A stretch of 64,000 bases of DNA from an uncultured Flavobacteriales bacterium (GTDB lineage Bacteria > Bacteroidota > Bacteroidia > Flavobacteriales_D > Sanyastnellaceae). A program made the position numbers and the translations under genes. This document shows, in pieces, positions 14,770-21,894 of this stretch (position 1 is the stretch's first letter; each line of letters begins with the position of its first letter). The stretch lies in NCBI GenBank assembly GCA_938085425.1, contig CALKGQ010000011.1:62001-126000 (forward strand), read 5' to 3'. The notes below the pieces were generated by a model. It was not told where the DNA came from. It saw only the letters and a program-made list of their open reading frames with translations, and ran no database searches.

Positions 14770-16146
14770 ATGCAGAGAGAAGCAGCCATTCGCGAACCCC
14801 TGATCCTAGGGCACAAAACCTACAAGGACATCACAGACGATGTGGTGGGCCCCATCATGGGACCTGCACCTTTGGGTTGGAAAATCATGATCACCATCTC
14901 CAGCCTGATCGCCGTGTACGGTGTCGGATGCATTCTGTACCTCCTCGGCACAGGAATTGGGGTTTGGGGGTTGAACAAGACAGTCGACTGGGCCTGGGAC
15001 ATCACCAACTTCGTGTGGTGGGTTGGGATCGGTCACGCAGGGACGCTGATTTCAGCGGTTCTCTTGCTGTTCCGCCAAAAATGGAGGATGGCCATCAACC
15101 GCTCGGCGGAGGCGATGACCATTTTCGCGGTCATCATGGCCGCGGTGTTCCCCGGCATTCACATGGGCCGCATTTGGGTGAGCTACTGGGTGCTGCCATT
15201 GCCCAACCAGTTTGGGTCCCTTTGGGTCAACTTCAACAGCCCGCTTCTGTGGGATGTCTTTGCGATTTCCACGTATTTCTCAGTGTCGTTGGTGTTCTGG
15301 TACATAGGGTTGATTCCTGATTTTGCCACCATCCGTGACCGCGTCACGGGACCTTGGCAAAAGCGGGTGTACAGCTTCCTCAGTTTTGGCTGGTCAGGAC
15401 GTGCGAAGCACTGGACCCGTTTTGAAGAGGTGAGCTTGGTTTTGGCGGGCATTGCGACACCTCTTGTGTTCTCGGTGCACTCCATCGTCTCGATGGACTT
15501 CGCCACATCGGTCATCCCTGGATGGCACACGACGATTTTCCCACCTTACTTCGTCTCGGGGGCAGTGTTCTCAGGATTTGCCATGGTGCAAACGCTCCTG
15601 CTGATCATGCGGAAGGGCATGAAGCTGGAGAACTACATCCACGTCAAGCACGTGGAATACATGAACATTGTGATCATCGTGACGGGTTCCATTGTGGGCG
15701 TGGCCTACCTCACCGAGCTCTTCATCTCGTGGTACAGCGGTGTGGAGTATGAGAGCTATGCCTTCATCAACCGTGCCAGTGGCCCATACAGCTGGGCCTA
15801 CTGGATCATGATGTCCTGCAATGTGATCAGCCCACAATTGTATTGGTTCAAGAAAATCCGGCGAAGCCTTGTGGCCACTTTTGTCTTGAGCATCGTGGTG
15901 AACATTGGCATGTGGTTCGAGCGGTACGTCATCATCGTTACCTCGCTTCACAGGGACTATCTGCCCTCCAGCTGGGGCGAATTCCATGCGACGTCGATTG
16001 ACATTGGCATTTTCATTGGCACCATTGGGATCTTCTTGACACTGTTTCTTGGTTTTGCAAGGTTCTTCCCGGTGCTGGCCTTGAACGAACTGAAGACCAT
16101 CCTCAAGTCCAGCGGAGAGTCGTACAAAAACGAGCAAGCAAAATGA
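14770..16146 (+). CDS. actC: Alternative complex III subunit ActC (NrfD-like membrane protein)
   Basis: 458 residues, about ten transmembrane helices (IMITISSLIAVYGVGCILYL, LISAVLLLF, MTIFAVIMAAVFPGIHMG and others). It is an NrfD/PsrC-family integral membrane subunit that forms a quinol-binding site and probably a proton path in ACIII. It starts 10 nt after actB, and its stop overlaps actD as ATGA. Length and position match ActC in the conserved act gene order. Confidence 0.92.
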   Translation: MQREAAIREPLILGHKTYKDITDDVVGPIMGPAPLGWKIMITISSLIAVYGVGCILYLLGTGIGVWGLNKTVDWAWDITNFVWWVGIGHAGTLISAVLLLFRQKWRMAINRSAEAMTIFAVIMAAVFPGIHMGRIWVSYWVLPLPNQFGSLWVNFNSPLLWDVFAISTYFSVSLVFWYIGLIPDFATIRDRVTGPWQKRVYSFLSFGWSGRAKHWTRFEEVSLVLAGIATPLVFSVHSIVSMDFATSVIPGWHTTIFPPYFVSGAVFSGFAMVQTLLLIMRKGMKLENYIHVKHVEYMNIVIIVTGSIVGVAYLTELFISWYSGVEYESYAFINRASGPYSWAYWIMMSCNVISPQLYWFKKIRRSLVATFVLSIVVNIGMWFERYVIIVTSLHRDYLPSSWGEFHATSIDIGIFIGTIGIFLTLFLGFARFFPVLALNELKTILKSSGESYKNEQAK

Positions 16147-16670
16147 GCAAGATTTTCCACGTCATGTATGACGACGATGCCGTTTTGATGACGGCCGCCA
16201 AAGACCTCGTGGGTCAGGGTGTGCGCGTGAAGGATGTGTTCTCTCCTTTCCCCGTGCACGGCATCGATCCCGTCATTGGCATCAAGCGCACGCGTTTGGC
16301 CATTTGTTCTTTCATGTTCGCGATGACAGGCACCTCCTTGGCGCTCCTGGGCATGTGGTATTTCATGATCTCGGACTGGCCCATGAACATTGGAGGAAAG
16401 CCCAGTTTTTCCTTGATTGAGAATGTCATGGCGTTCATTCCTGTCACCTTTGAATTCTCCGTGTTGTGCGGGGCGCACGGGATGGCCATCACCTACTTGT
16501 TGAGGAATGGGACGCTGCCGGGAATGCCTGCAACCAACCCCGACCCGCGCACCACAGACGACAAGTTCGTCATGGAGATCACCACCGACAACAACAGCAT
16601 GTCATCCGATGAATTGGAATCTGCCATACGCGGAACGGACATGATTGAACTCAGCATCAAAGACGCCTAA
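16143..16670 (+). CDS. actD: Alternative complex III subunit ActD (DUF3341)
   Basis: 175 residues. A soluble N-terminal domain (FHVMYDDDAVLMTAAKDLVG) is followed by two membrane helices (ICSFMFAMTGTSLALLGMWY and VMAFIPVTFEFSVLCGAHGM) and a cytoplasmic tail with a conserved TDDKFVMEI segment. This is the DUF3341 structure of ActD, a peripheral and membrane-anchored subunit of ACIII. It is translationally coupled to actC (ATGA) and lies 3 nt before actE. Confidence 0.9.
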   Translation: MSKIFHVMYDDDAVLMTAAKDLVGQGVRVKDVFSPFPVHGIDPVIGIKRTRLAICSFMFAMTGTSLALLGMWYFMISDWPMNIGGKPSFSLIENVMAFIPVTFEFSVLCGAHGMAITYLLRNGTLPGMPATNPDPRTTDDKFVMEITTDNNSMSSDELESAIRGTDMIELSIKDA

Positions 16671-16673
16671 GCC

Positions 16674-17357
16674 ATGTCAAAGCGCTGGAACCCCATCGTC
16701 CCGATTGCTGCCTTTGTGGTGGCAATGTCCGGGTGTGTCACGGACGAAAACAGTCCGGGACTCGAGTACATGCCCGACATGTACCGCTCTCCTGCCGTAG
16801 AGGCCTATGTGGACTACGGCATGGACCCCTACTATGTCACAGAGGAGGTCGCCGTGGGCCAGCGCAACACGCAGAGTGCGCGGAAGCCTGTGGCAGGCAC
16901 CATTCCCTTTGTTGGGGCGAACAAAGCGTTTGGCCTTCCATACGCCTACCCCAACACCCCTGAAGGATACGAAGCCGCTGGAATGGAGCTTGCAAGCCCA
17001 CTCAGCACCACCAAGGCACACATTGAGGCAGGCATGGAGATTTACGTGCAGATGTGCACCCAGTGTCACGGAGAAGAAGGGAAGGGCGACGGGGCATTGT
17101 CCCGCAATGGCCACATCGCAGGCATCCCCTCCTATTCGGACAAACTCAAGGACTTGCCCATGGGCAAGATGTACCACACGTTGACCTATGGAAAGGGATT
17201 GATGGGCTCGCATGCCTCTCAGCTCTCCCAAAAGGACAGATGGCTGGTCATTGAGTACATCAAGGTCTTGCAACAAGGCGGTGAAATGCCTGAGTTTGAC
17301 GAATCGGGCAACGTGGTTGAATCGGCGGCAGATGGCGCCATGGCAATGAACAACTGA
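16674..17357 (+). CDS. actE: Alternative complex III subunit ActE (monohaem cytochrome c lipoprotein)
   Basis: 227 residues. A lipoprotein signal (IAAFVVAMSGC) leads to a periplasmic domain with one CTQCHGEEGKGDG haem c site near residue 128 and a distal Met (MGKMYHTLTYGKGLMG) typical of cytochrome c class I. In ACIII, ActE carries the haem thought to pass electrons onward to the oxidase. It lies between actD and actF with 3- and 2-nt gaps. Confidence 0.92.
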   Translation: MSKRWNPIVPIAAFVVAMSGCVTDENSPGLEYMPDMYRSPAVEAYVDYGMDPYYVTEEVAVGQRNTQSARKPVAGTIPFVGANKAFGLPYAYPNTPEGYEAAGMELASPLSTTKAHIEAGMEIYVQMCTQCHGEEGKGDGALSRNGHIAGIPSYSDKLKDLPMGKMYHTLTYGKGLMGSHASQLSQKDRWLVIEYIKVLQQGGEMPEFDESGNVVESAADGAMAMNN

Positions 17358-17359
17358 TC

Positions 17360-18616
17360 ATGGAATTCAAATTTGAAGGACGGCTCAAGCTCGTGACCCA
17401 GGTCTTGATGGCTGTGGGTGTCGTCGCGCTCGTGGGTGGATTTCTCACCGACACCAGTGACCACCACAACCGGTGGTGGGCCAACTTGCTCATCAACGGG
17501 TTCTTTTACTTCAGCATGGCCTTGGCCGCGCTTTTCTTTTATGCCCTTCAATACGCCACAGAGAGTGGATGGTCAGCCGTATTGAAACGATGGTTTGAGG
17601 CCTTGTGGGGCTTTTTGCCTTGGGGTGCAGCTGTGATTGTGGTGGTGTTGCTGGCAGGAAAATTTCATGCCCATCACCTCTACCACTGGATGGACCACAC
17701 CCTCTACCACGAATACATGGTGGAACACGGGGACCACGTGCATTACGTCGATGAGATGGAGGAAGGGGCTGTGCTCAACCCCAACTTTGACCACGTCATC
17801 GCAGGCAAGAAGGCCTATTTCTCGGACGCATTCTTTTGGATTCGCACGCTGGTGTACATCGCGACGTTCTTGTTGTTCGCGCGCATGTTCAGAAAGTGGT
17901 CGTTGCTCGAAGACGAGGCCCCCAGCTTGGACTTGCACTACAAGCAATACAAAAGGGGGGCTGTGTTCTTGGTGGTGTTTGCCGTCTTCTCGTCGACGCT
18001 TTCATGGGATTGGATCATGTCCATTGACACCCACTGGTTCAGCACACTGTTTGGCTGGTATGTCTTCAGCGGCATGTGGGTGAGCTTCATGATTTTCACC
18101 AATGTGAGCATGCTTTGGTTGCGCAGCCAAGGCTACTTCAAAGAGGTCAACGAGAGCCACATGCACGATTTGGGCAAGTGGATGTTTGCCATTTCCATGT
18201 TGTGGAGCTACCTCTGGTTGAGTCAATTCCTCCTGATTTGGTACTCCAACATCCCGGAGGAAGTCACGTATTACATGAGCCGTGTGCTCGGGGATTACAA
18301 GGTGCCTTTCTTGGCCATGTTCTTTGTGAATTTTGCCGTGCCTTTCTATGTGTTGCTTGCCCGTGATGCCAAACGCAACCCGCGCTTTGTCATTCCCGTG
18401 GCCATCCTCATCTTCATCGCCCACTTCGTGGACGTGTACTTGCTGATCGTTCCCGGAACAATGTTTGACCATAATCAATTTGGTTTCTTTGAGGTTGGAA
18501 TGTTTCTGGGCTTCCTGGGGCTCTTCATGAACCGGACGTTTGCCACCTTGGCAAAGGCGCCGCTCATCAGCAAGAATCACCCCATGCTTCAGGAGAGCAT
18601 GGAACTCCATTACTGA
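17360..18616 (+). CDS. actF: Alternative complex III subunit ActF (NrfD-like membrane protein)
   Basis: 418 residues, about ten membrane helices, related to ActC (QVLMAVGVVALVGGFLTD, IVVVVLLAGKF, then DWIMSIDTHWFSTLFGWYVF). It carries a His-rich stretch (FHAHHLYHWMDHTLYHEYM) between helices. ActF is the second NrfD-like subunit of ACIII. It starts 2 nt after actE and is followed after 21 nt by coxB, which supports the ACIII-aa3 supercomplex arrangement known from Flavobacterium johnsoniae. Confidence 0.9.
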   Translation: MEFKFEGRLKLVTQVLMAVGVVALVGGFLTDTSDHHNRWWANLLINGFFYFSMALAALFFYALQYATESGWSAVLKRWFEALWGFLPWGAAVIVVVLLAGKFHAHHLYHWMDHTLYHEYMVEHGDHVHYVDEMEEGAVLNPNFDHVIAGKKAYFSDAFFWIRTLVYIATFLLFARMFRKWSLLEDEAPSLDLHYKQYKRGAVFLVVFAVFSSTLSWDWIMSIDTHWFSTLFGWYVFSGMWVSFMIFTNVSMLWLRSQGYFKEVNESHMHDLGKWMFAISMLWSYLWLSQFLLIWYSNIPEEVTYYMSRVLGDYKVPFLAMFFVNFAVPFYVLLARDAKRNPRFVIPVAILIFIAHFVDVYLLIVPGTMFDHNQFGFFEVGMFLGFLGLFMNRTFATLAKAPLISKNHPMLQESMELHY

Positions 18617-18637: not shown

Positions 18638-20137
18638 ATGAAACTCATCACGCTTCTCGTCGTCATTGCTGGTGTCATCGCGCTGGCCCAGTTGGCCAAA
18701 GTTGGCCAGTTGACGTCTTTGATCCGGAACAAGAAAGAGGAGGACATCAGCGAGGCTGATTCCCGCCTCAACGGAGGATTGTTCATTGCCTTCATGGCTG
18801 CTTTCTACGGCGGCTTCATTTGGTTGTTGATCCGTTACGGCGACTACAACCCACCTGCAGCCTCCGCGCATGGTGAGTCCTACGACACGTTGATGAACTT
18901 CAACATGTACATCATCATTGCGGTTTTCTTTTTGGTGAACACGGCACTTTTTGCGTTTGCCAACAAGTACAAGTACAGCAAGGACCGCAAGGCGACCTTC
19001 TTCGCCCATGACAACCGCCTCGAGTTGATTTGGACGGTGATCCCTTCCATCGTCTTGGCGGTCATCATCATTTTCGGTTTGCGGACGTGGAACGAAATGA
19101 CTGGCGAAGCGTCAGAGGACTCCCTCCGCGTGGAGCTCTACTCCAAGCAATTTGATTGGACGGCGCGTTACGCCGGAGCGGATGGAGAATTTGGTCTGGC
19201 CAATTACAACCTCATCACGCCGACAAATCCACTTGGCATTGTGACCCAAGGTGGCGTGTCGGAAGCGCTGGTGGGCATCGAAGACCAAATTGCTTCGTTG
19301 GAGAGTGAATTGTCCCACGAGCGAGGGCGCTTGTTGGCGGCGAAAGCTGAGTTGGAAGAAGAACTCCACGGCGATCATGGTCACGGTCACGACGACCATG
19401 GCCACGACGACCATGGCCACGACGACCACGGCCACGACGACCATGGCCACGACGACCATGGCCACGACGACCATGGCCACGACGACCACGGCCATGACGA
19501 CCACGGCCACGACGACCACGGCATGTCCGAAGCGCGCAAGGCCAACCTTGAGGCCCAATTGCACGACGTCATGGAGATGTTGGAAAGCGACAAGGTGGTG
19601 GTGTTGTCCAATGCCGCAGCCGAAGCCAAAGAAGACAAGTTGCACCGTTTGAAGCGCCACCGCCAGCGCATCCTGGAAGTCAAGCCATTTGACTACGAAG
19701 GAGGCATTGCCGCGTGGGACGCAGGTGCGGATGACAAGATCATGAAAGGAGAATTCCACTTGCCCGTGGGCCGCGAGGTGGAATTTGTGTTCCGTTCGCG
19801 CGATGTCATCCACAGCGCATTCATGCCACACTTTAGGGCCCAGATGAACTCTGTGCCAGGGGTGCCGACGCGCTTCAAAATGACGCCTACAATCACCACG
19901 GACAGCATGAGGACCATTCTGGACGATCCAGACTTCAGTTACGTTCTGCTCTGCAACAAAGTCTGCGGCGCGGCGCACTTCAACATGCAAATGTCCATTG
20001 TCATTGAATCCGAGGAGGAATACAATGCTTGGATGGAATCGCAAGAGGAGTTTTTGGCCGAAAAGCCCAACGCCGTGGATGAGAATGCACGTGCCGAGGC
20101 GCCACAATTTGAAACCGAAGAATCTGCAACACTCTAA
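18638..20137 (+). CDS. coxB: Cytochrome c oxidase subunit II (CuA) with His-rich insertion
   Basis: 499 residues. Several N-terminal hydrophobic helices (residues about 1-165) are followed by a periplasmic cupredoxin domain. The CuA loop CNKVCGAAHFNMQM supplies two Cys, His and Met; the usual Glu of CxExC is Lys, but that position ligates through its backbone. There is no fused cytochrome c, so this is aa3-type. Residues about 200-350 are an insertion between the first cupredoxin strands: a predicted coiled coil, nine GHDDH-type repeats (about 247-294), then a second helical segment. Subunit II of related Bacteroidota has only a short loop at this point. The gene is between actF and coxA (2 nt from the latter). 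Confidence 0.92.
   Translation: MKLITLLVVIAGVIALAQLAKVGQLTSLIRNKKEEDISEADSRLNGGLFIAFMAAFYGGFIWLLIRYGDYNPPAASAHGESYDTLMNFNMYIIIAVFFLVNTALFAFANKYKYSKDRKATFFAHDNRLELIWTVIPSIVLAVIIIFGLRTWNEMTGEASEDSLRVELYSKQFDWTARYAGADGEFGLANYNLITPTNPLGIVTQGGVSEALVGIEDQIASLESELSHERGRLLAAKAELEEELHGDHGHGHDDHGHDDHGHDDHGHDDHGHDDHGHDDHGHDDHGHDDHGHDDHGMSEARKANLEAQLHDVMEMLESDKVVVLSNAAAEAKEDKLHRLKRHRQRILEVKPFDYEGGIAAWDAGADDKIMKGEFHLPVGREVEFVFRSRDVIHSAFMPHFRAQMNSVPGVPTRFKMTPTITTDSMRTILDDPDFSYVLLCNKVCGAAHFNMQMSIVIESEEEYNAWMESQEEFLAEKPNAVDENARAEAPQFETEESATL
19376..19522 (+). repeat. 15-bp in-frame tandem repeat (nine copies) inside coxB
   Basis: The unit GGCCACGACGACCAT, with CAC/CAT and GGT variation, occurs nine times and encodes Gly-His-Asp-Asp-His. 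The near-identity of copies suggests recent expansion by slippage, so copy number may vary between strains. The reverse strand also reads open through the array as an artefact of the repeat. Confidence 0.9.
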
Positions 20138-20139
20138 CC

Positions 20140-21894
20140 ATGGCTGAACACGCACATCACGAAGAGAGCTTCATTTCGAAGTACATCTTCAGCCAAGATC
20201 ACAAGATGATCTCCAAGCAGTTTTTGGTCACTGCCATGGCCATGGGCATCGTGGCGGTGATGCTCTCTGTCTTCTTCCGCCTGCAATTGGGTTGGCCAGG
20301 AGAGAGTTTTGCCATTCTGGAAACGTTCTTGGGCAAATGGGCCCCCGGAGGGGTGTTGGACCGAAACGCATACCTGGCGCTCGTGACCATTCACGGGACG
20401 ATCATGGTGTTCTTCGTCCTGACAGGAGGTTTGTCAGGTACGTTCTCCAATCTTTTGATTCCACTGCAGATTGGTGCCCGTGACATGGCGTCGGGGTTCC
20501 TGAACATGCTGAGCTACTGGTTCTTTGCCGTGTCCAGCGTGATCATGATTTTCTCCCTCTTTGTCGAGGGAGGCGCAGCTTCTGGTGGTTGGACGGTGTA
20601 CCCTCCGCTCAGCGCATTGCCGCAGGCGATGCCGGGTTCGGGCATGGGCATGACCCTCTGGCTGATTTCCATGACGCTTTTTGTGGTGAGTTCATTGCTC
20701 GGTGGATTGAACTATGTCGTAACGGTCATCAACTTGAGGACCAAAGGCATGAGCATGACGCGCTTGCCCTTGACCATCTGGGCGTTCTTGGTGACGGCGA
20801 TTCTTGGGGTGCTTTCTTTCCCTGTCTTGGTGTCCGCCGTTGTGCTGTTGCTCATGGACCGCTCCATGGGAACCGCGTTTTACCTGAGTGACATCTTCAT
20901 TGGAGGCGAAGCCCTCGATGTGACCGGTGGAAGCCCCATTCTTTACCAGCACTTGTTCTGGTTCTTGGGTCACCCTGAGGTGTACATCGTGCTCTTGCCA
21001 GCACTGGGCATCAGTTCGGAGGTGATTGCCACCAACTCGCGCAAGCCCATTTTTGGGTACAAGGCCATGATTGGTTCCATCCTCGGCATTGGGTTTTTGA
21101 GCTTCATTGTCTGGGGTCACCACATGTTTGTGACTGGCATGAACCCCTTCTTGGGATCTGTGTTTGTTTTCACAACGCTTTTGATTGCCATCCCCTCTGC
21201 GGTGAAGGCCTTCAACTACATCACCACCCTTTGGAAGGGCAACCTGCGGTTCACGCCAGCCATGCTGTTCAGCATTGGTTTGGTGAGCACCTTTGTGACA
21301 GGGGGATTGACAGGCATCATTTTGGCGGACTCGGCACTTGACGTGAATGTGCACGACACGTATTTCGTGGTCGCACACTTCCACATCGTGATGGGCATGA
21401 GTGCGATTTTTGGCATGCTTGCCGGAGTCTACCATTGGTTCCCCAAAATGTTTGGGCGGATGATGAACAACAAACTCGGCTACGTGCACTTCTGGACCAC
21501 ATTGGTGGCCGGGTACGGTGTGTTCTTCCCCATGCACTTTGTAGGACTGGCAGGTGCACCGCGTCGTTATTACGATTACAGTGCCTTTGAGTACCTCGAC
21601 TTTGTCATGGACTTGCAACCCATCATCTCTACTTTTGCCATCATCGGCGCGGTGGGGCAGCTGCCTTTCTTGTGGAACTTCTTCTACAGCATTTTCCGTG
21701 GCCAGGTGGCGACTGAAAACCCATGGAAGTCGAACACGTTGGAGTGGACCACACCGGTCAAGCACGTCCATGGCAACTGGCCTGGTGCACTGCCTGAGGT
21801 CCACCGTTGGGCGTATGATTACAGCAACCCAGACTTTGAGGAAGATTTTGTTCCTCAAATCGTTCCGCTGAAAGCTGGCGAAACAGCCCACTGA
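20140..21894 (+). CDS. coxA: Cytochrome c oxidase subunit I (aa3, A-type)
   Basis: 584 residues, twelve or more membrane helices. It carries the haem-copper signature: HPEVYIVLLPALG (CuB His and the cross-linked Tyr), WGHHMFVTGMNP (CuB His pair) and VHDTYFVVAHFHIVMG (haem a3 and a His ligands). It reduces O2 to water while pumping protons. Last gene of the act-cox operon, with an intrinsic terminator directly behind it. No subunit III or IV gene is present here, so these must lie elsewhere in the genome. Confidence 0.96.
   Translation: MAEHAHHEESFISKYIFSQDHKMISKQFLVTAMAMGIVAVMLSVFFRLQLGWPGESFAILETFLGKWAPGGVLDRNAYLALVTIHGTIMVFFVLTGGLSGTFSNLLIPLQIGARDMASGFLNMLSYWFFAVSSVIMIFSLFVEGGAASGGWTVYPPLSALPQAMPGSGMGMTLWLISMTLFVVSSLLGGLNYVVTVINLRTKGMSMTRLPLTIWAFLVTAILGVLSFPVLVSAVVLLLMDRSMGTAFYLSDIFIGGEALDVTGGSPILYQHLFWFLGHPEVYIVLLPALGISSEVIATNSRKPIFGYKAMIGSILGIGFLSFIVWGHHMFVTGMNPFLGSVFVFTTLLIAIPSAVKAFNYITTLWKGNLRFTPAMLFSIGLVSTFVTGGLTGIILADSALDVNVHDTYFVVAHFHIVMGMSAIFGMLAGVYHWFPKMFGRMMNNKLGYVHFWTTLVAGYGVFFPMHFVGLAGAPRRYYDYSAFEYLDFVMDLQPIISTFAIIGAVGQLPFLWNFFYSIFRGQVATENPWKSNTLEWTTPVKHVHGNWPGALPEVHRWAYDYSNPDFEEDFVPQIVPLKAGETAH

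Follow-up and report, generated by a model that had tools for sequence, protein, structure and literature searches.

The CuA-bearing subunit II (CoxB) of the aa3 oxidase encoded in the 64,000-nucleotide stretch analysed here (the window) is a variant of a known enzyme subunit with recently expanded repeats. On the basis of structure prediction, it most likely extends a rigid helical stalk out of its cupredoxin (CuA) domain, ending in a flexible tip composed of His, Asp and Gly. The tip lies on the periplasmic side, outside the inner membrane, as follows from its attachment to the CuA domain. Fixed on CoxB across a large clade and found again in two other families, the His-rich tip is a candidate, open to test, for a metal supply or buffer built into the oxidase, and no description of a His-rich CoxB was found in the open-access literature searched.

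The protein is a true CoxB, since the CuA ligands, a COX2_TM match, the cupredoxin domain and a neighbouring gene for subunit I are all present. The transmembrane model COX2_TM (PF02790) matched with 55.4 bits (cut-off 22.8), and the Pfam COX2 model for the periplasmic domain scored 20.8 bits, slightly below its cut-off of 22. A Foldseek search with the predicted structure returned many cytochrome oxidase subunit II structures (probability 1.00, best E value 3.7e-10), and residues H392, C439, C443, H447 and M450 were unchanged across the alignment of 64 homologues. The genes follow the order multihaem cytochrome c, iron-sulfur subunit, NrfD, ActD, mono-haem cytochrome c, ActF-like, coxB and coxA, which is an ACIII operon followed by the two oxidase genes (Table 1). 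The ActF-like gene (17360-18613) gave no Pfam match and was named from its position and its membrane-protein appearance. A second, insert-free copy of CoxB was considered and rejected for the window genome (2.07 Mb, 97.8% complete), where a single CoxB match was obtained.

Table 1. Positions in the window of the oxidase locus and of the parts of the CoxB arm.
Feature	Position	Strand	Basis
ACIII genes: NrfD-type membrane subunit, ActD, mono-haem cytochrome c (ActE-like), ActF-like	14770..18616	+	Pfam NrfD, ActD, Cytochrome_CBB3
coxB (CuA subunit II of aa3 oxidase)	18638..20137	+	ORF, 499 aa; COX2_TM match; Foldseek
Predicted arm helix 1 (residues 204-226), equivalent to first helix of old hairpin	19247..19315	+	AlphaFold2, block pLDDT about 94-95; compare L024 helix 204-231
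Predicted arm helix 2 (residues 229-247), clade-specific extension	19322..19378	+	AlphaFold2; missing in two-helix model of L024
Predicted disordered His/Asp/Gly tip (residues 248-297)	19379..19528	+	AlphaFold2, pLDDT <50 at 248-266 and 270-293; composition
Nine tandem 15-bp units, each HDDHG	19388..19522	+	Tandem Repeats Finder; unit read-out
Predicted arm helix 3 (residues 298-316), clade-specific extension	19529..19585	+	AlphaFold2
Predicted arm helix 4 (residues 325-346), equivalent to second helix of old hairpin (KLxRLKRHxQRI)	19610..19675	+	AlphaFold2; consensus conserved in alignment A1; compare L024 helix 236-257
CuA ligand region: H392, then C439-x3-C443-x3-H447-x2-M450	19811..19987	+	Invariant in 64-sequence alignment
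coxA (oxidase subunit I)	20140..21894	+	Pfam COX1, 461 bits

The window CoxB is about 150 residues longer than its short-loop homologues, and the loop between the motifs QFDW and DVIHS spans 214 residues, 26 of them His. In the AlphaFold2 model (64-sequence alignment, mean pLDDT 82), strands at residues 163-170 and 173-178 precede the arm and the remaining strands begin at 367 (the first at 367-370), placing the arm after the second cupredoxin strand. Averaged over ten-residue blocks, pLDDT was mostly 93-97 in the helices and 42-45 in the tip, where 21 of 51 residues are His. The sequence-only reading had proposed a large insert with helical flanks between early cupredoxin strands, and both points were borne out by the strand positions and by the confident helices on either side of the tip. 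For comparison, a His-less relative (L024, modelled from alignment A2) was predicted to have two helices only, at 204-231 and 236-257, and no low-confidence tip. The outer helix pair of the window arm was accordingly equated with an old hairpin, and the inner pair together with the tip with an added part. The supposition of a single insertion thus gives way to an old hairpin bearing a newer His-rich tip and an extra helix pair, and the short loop that had been expected in related proteins was not what the family members carried: those read have at least the two-helix hairpin.

The age of the two layers was deduced from CoxBs at loci collected in searches at family, order and class level and for named genomes. 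A two-helix hairpin at the arm site is old in Flavobacteriales and one subclade, whose members are mostly uncultured, gained the second helix pair and the tip; an insert gained whole as one recent event was rejected, because the hairpin is order-wide. In Bacteroidia from other orders (L184-L189) the loop is short and lacks the hairpin. The maximum number of His per 30 residues in measurable loops was 6-13 in 61 CoxBs and 0-2 in 33, with none between. Direct reading of the sequences in family f1, to which the window belongs, showed the tip in ten genera (g1, g2, g4, g5, g9, g10, g12, g14, g15 and g16) and its absence in six (g3, g8, g11, g19, g20 and g21), with further f1 genera counted as tip-less from frame length only. 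A tip at the equivalent spot was also present outside f1, in L110 (family f6, same order) and in L179 and L180 (family f26, another order).

The number of origins was addressed in a tree built from CoxB core columns with the loop left out. The His label changed three times in this tree, compared with a mean of 30.8 for shuffled labels, and the starred branches force at least two changes. All 58 tip-bearing f1 rows fell into two clades with no tip-less row inside either (58 of 58 subclade CoxBs in the tree bear the tip), and these two clades and the tip-less f1 clade join in an unresolved fork. L110 and the f26 pair both have long branches, which makes a third origin probable and not proven. 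The His-rich tip thus had no fewer than two origins, and probably three.

The tip of the window CoxB is dominated by the repeat array, which Tandem Repeats Finder scored at 235 (15-bp unit, 95% matches, 9.0 copies, a copy number that comes from a short-contig assembly and is hence uncertain), well ahead of every other array in the window. Each of the nine units encodes HDDHG, and their five base differences from the consensus are all synonymous third-position changes in His codons. With 13 His in 30 residues, the repeat is the His peak among the open frames of the window, the runner-up being a short 85-codon frame with 10. When the window genome (G000) was scanned for a DNA pattern of the H-x-H-x-x-H-x-H type, only the coxB array was returned, and in the other genomes scanned the matches lay in coxB or in AtpB or lipoprotein tails. 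The near-identical units, together with the different units of other species, agree with the recent expansion that had been proposed from the sequence, and the suggested copy-number variation has its counterpart in a tip length that differs between species.

An assembly artefact or a broken gene as the explanation for the tip is extremely improbable. Contigs do end or hold N inside the His-rich tip in G032, G083, L005 and L144, and short-read copy numbers are unreliable. The frame and the CuA ligands of the window gene are intact, however, the tip is present in every subclade member, and a His-tip CoxB was found both in a 4.1-Mb single-contig genome (G021/L008) and in a 2-contig genome (G079/L050). 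The latter two show that assembly error does not account for the feature, and as an explanation of its existence an artefact is refuted.

Across species, the tips measure 16-109 residues and contain 24-50% His (median 36%), and their sequences are dissimilar. Pooled, they consist of 34.7% His, the commonest residue, 22.8% Asp, 16.5% Gly, 7.9% Ala and 5.5% Glu, with no Cys. The arrays within them have units of 15 bp x 9 in the window, 24 bp x 9.3 (L082), 9 bp x 7.3 (L076), 51 bp x 2.9 (L089), 63 bp x 2.1 (L071) and 15 bp x 3.5 (L040), the unit of L001 also being 15 bp; the arrays of L076, L001/L040, L082, L089 and L071 show 95-100% matches. Because the units differ between species, the expansions are deduced to have been separate while the composition was kept. 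It is the repeat sequence alone that is recent, the feature itself being old and conserved. The tips of family f26 (G303 and G343) are rich in His yet show hardly any evident repetition, and slippage is therefore not the sole route to this composition. The CoxB tip is in this respect a good natural case of a composition kept under turnover of its repeat sequence, and recurrence together with kept composition suggests that the His are put to use.

The main rival to such a use treats the tip as a low-complexity spacer that is tolerated at the exposed end of the hairpin, where slippage in CAY/GAY/GGN codons adds and removes units and the His are unused. This possibility is a serious one, although we judge it clearly less than even. 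It is favoured by the free variation of repeat units and length between close species and by the predicted disorder of the tip; in addition, the five synonymous differences between units may reflect few mutational events and are thus weak evidence for selection. In a diverged 51-bp repeat (L011/L035), inspected by eye, His was conserved no better than Gly, an observation given no weight in this comparison. Against a mere spacer, His is a rare amino acid, yet every tip-bearing CoxB of the f1 clades has at least 6 His per 30 residues, and two other families have His-rich tips at the equivalent place. His is not enriched in other expanded loops (L070, L176-L178), and so the place itself does not dictate the composition.

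The reading that we tentatively prefer, while granting it somewhat less than an even chance, is that the tip buffers or collects metal (Cu or Zn) with low affinity on the CuA subunit. Fixed to the oxidase itself, such a fast-exchange buffer would raise the local Cu close to where CuA is loaded by Sco-type chaperones; alternatively, it might keep Zn and surplus Cu loosely bound. The sharp separation of CoxBs into two His classes without intermediates speaks for a metal buffer. On the other side, the tips share no conserved site motif, composition alone being conserved, and HH is depleted in them, with His spacings of 3 and 5 over-represented, largely as a result of HDDHG-type units. The stalk may also place the tip far from CuA, which counts against the buffer. 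Metal binding had already been suggested by the sequence-only reading and is plausible, given that His is the commonest residue of the pooled tips and that tips recur in other families, with Cu, Zn or Fe as the candidate metal. We infer metal binding by the tip in vivo, and likewise the metal's identity and its transfer to CuA, and a copper reserve for CuA, as was suggested, is possible.

The supply of copper was examined in the relatives, all 60 of which have Sco domains, while none of the 60 matched the models for PCuAC (PF04314) or Cox11/CtaG (PF04442). A Pfam scan of CoxB likewise gave no PCuAC match. A specific tie between the tip and loss of PCuAC or Cox11 was rejected, the absence being order-wide with or without a tip. 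Sco and PCuAC proteins are credited with the loading of CuA in bacteria, although the arrangement varies widely (PMC6696091), and this variability makes an in-cis helper reasonable. In genomes with Sco domains and no PCuAC or Cox11 matches, the candidate tip bears on the copper route to CuA. The fullest form of the idea is an oxidase with its own metal reservoir, in which a stalked tip, evolved repeatedly as described above, would store Cu (or Zn), feed or protect CuA and do in cis some of what a separate periplasmic chaperone otherwise does; this we regard as unlikely. As a separate observation, a single open frame of the window genome (G000:C32:3045-4013) joins two SCO1-SenC domains, with equivalents in g4, g9, g10, g13 and g14 (about 410-460 codons), and the same pair forms two neighbouring genes in other family members.

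Other His-rich segments were noted in these genomes. AtpB (ATP synthase subunit a) has a His-rich N-terminal tail after a likely signal peptide in L210 (G013), L218 (G029) and L209 (G025), independently of the CoxB tip, and a small putative lipoprotein with a GCW motif has HDHDHE-type tails in L190 (G028) and L191 (G021). Since such segments occur even alongside a tip-less CoxB, His enrichment is possibly a general trait of periplasmic tails, which weakens a CuA-specific story. A further reading, that the tip buffers protons or pH locally on the periplasmic side of the proton pump, is very unlikely: His side chains do titrate near neutral pH and the AtpB tails of this family are probably periplasmic as well, but there is no clear need for a proton store on the exit side of the pump, and AtpB tails and CoxB tips are not always found together, G029 having the former and lacking the latter.

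The tips are also strongly acidic (Asp plus Glu about 28%, almost no Lys or Arg), and the donor genes lie directly upstream of coxB. These data would suit a docking tether whose acidity steers a cytochrome c domain, from ActA/ActE or from a soluble cytochrome c, towards the CuA domain, the His being incidental or pH-tuning, a role that we consider improbable. The acidity alone does not explain 35% His. In the ActF-like proteins (window 17360-18613 and L001-L143), the loop on the P side that follows HHLYHWMD has 56-60 residues and is His-rich in most tip-bearing f1 species, compared with 39 residues in the tip-less f1 species where it could be delimited; in family f4 it has 68-72 residues. Co-evolution of this loop with the CoxB arm is possible from these sequences, and the longer loop would favour a tether. 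The correspondence is broken, however, by L060 and L129, which have a tip and a shorter ActF loop, and by f4, which has the long loop without a tip. Moreover, the ACIII-oxidase supercomplex of F. johnsoniae is held through oxidase subunit III according to a review (PMC8361435), which counts against the tether and leaves the contact with ACIII proposed in the sequence-only reading without support.

The window CoxB can be placed among known systems by a series of likenesses. With cytochrome c oxidase subunit II (CoxB/CtaC) in general, the window protein shares the transmembrane part, the cupredoxin fold and the CuA ligands, and it differs from the usual form in its additional N-terminal helices and in the helical arm, ending in a His-rich tip, that is set between early cupredoxin strands. 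The Flavobacteriales CoxB with a plain hairpin (L024) has the insertion site and the outer helices in common with it, whereas the second helix pair, the disordered tip and the His enrichment are added in the window CoxB. The PCuAC chaperones are comparable in the proposed supply of Cu to CuA, but they are separate proteins, cupredoxin-like in fold, whose Met/His site is defined (PMC6696091), and CoxB has no match to such a domain. A further parallel is with the periplasmic His-rich loops of ZnuA and PA4063, which lack order in the metal-free state and contribute to Zn binding or are regarded as Zn collectors (PMC8561739). The CoxB tip is likewise predicted to be disordered and is His/Asp-rich, extracytoplasmic and set within a loop of a folded domain, and with 21 His in 51 residues at pLDDT <50 it has the high His content of a disordered extracytoplasmic loop that marks this class. 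ZnuA and PA4063 are Zn trafficking proteins with measured binding, whereas the CoxB tip belongs to a respiratory enzyme. A loop of this class would be expected beside a high-affinity site or transporter that it feeds; the CoxB tip is on the same protein as CuA, with a predicted stalk that possibly holds it far off.
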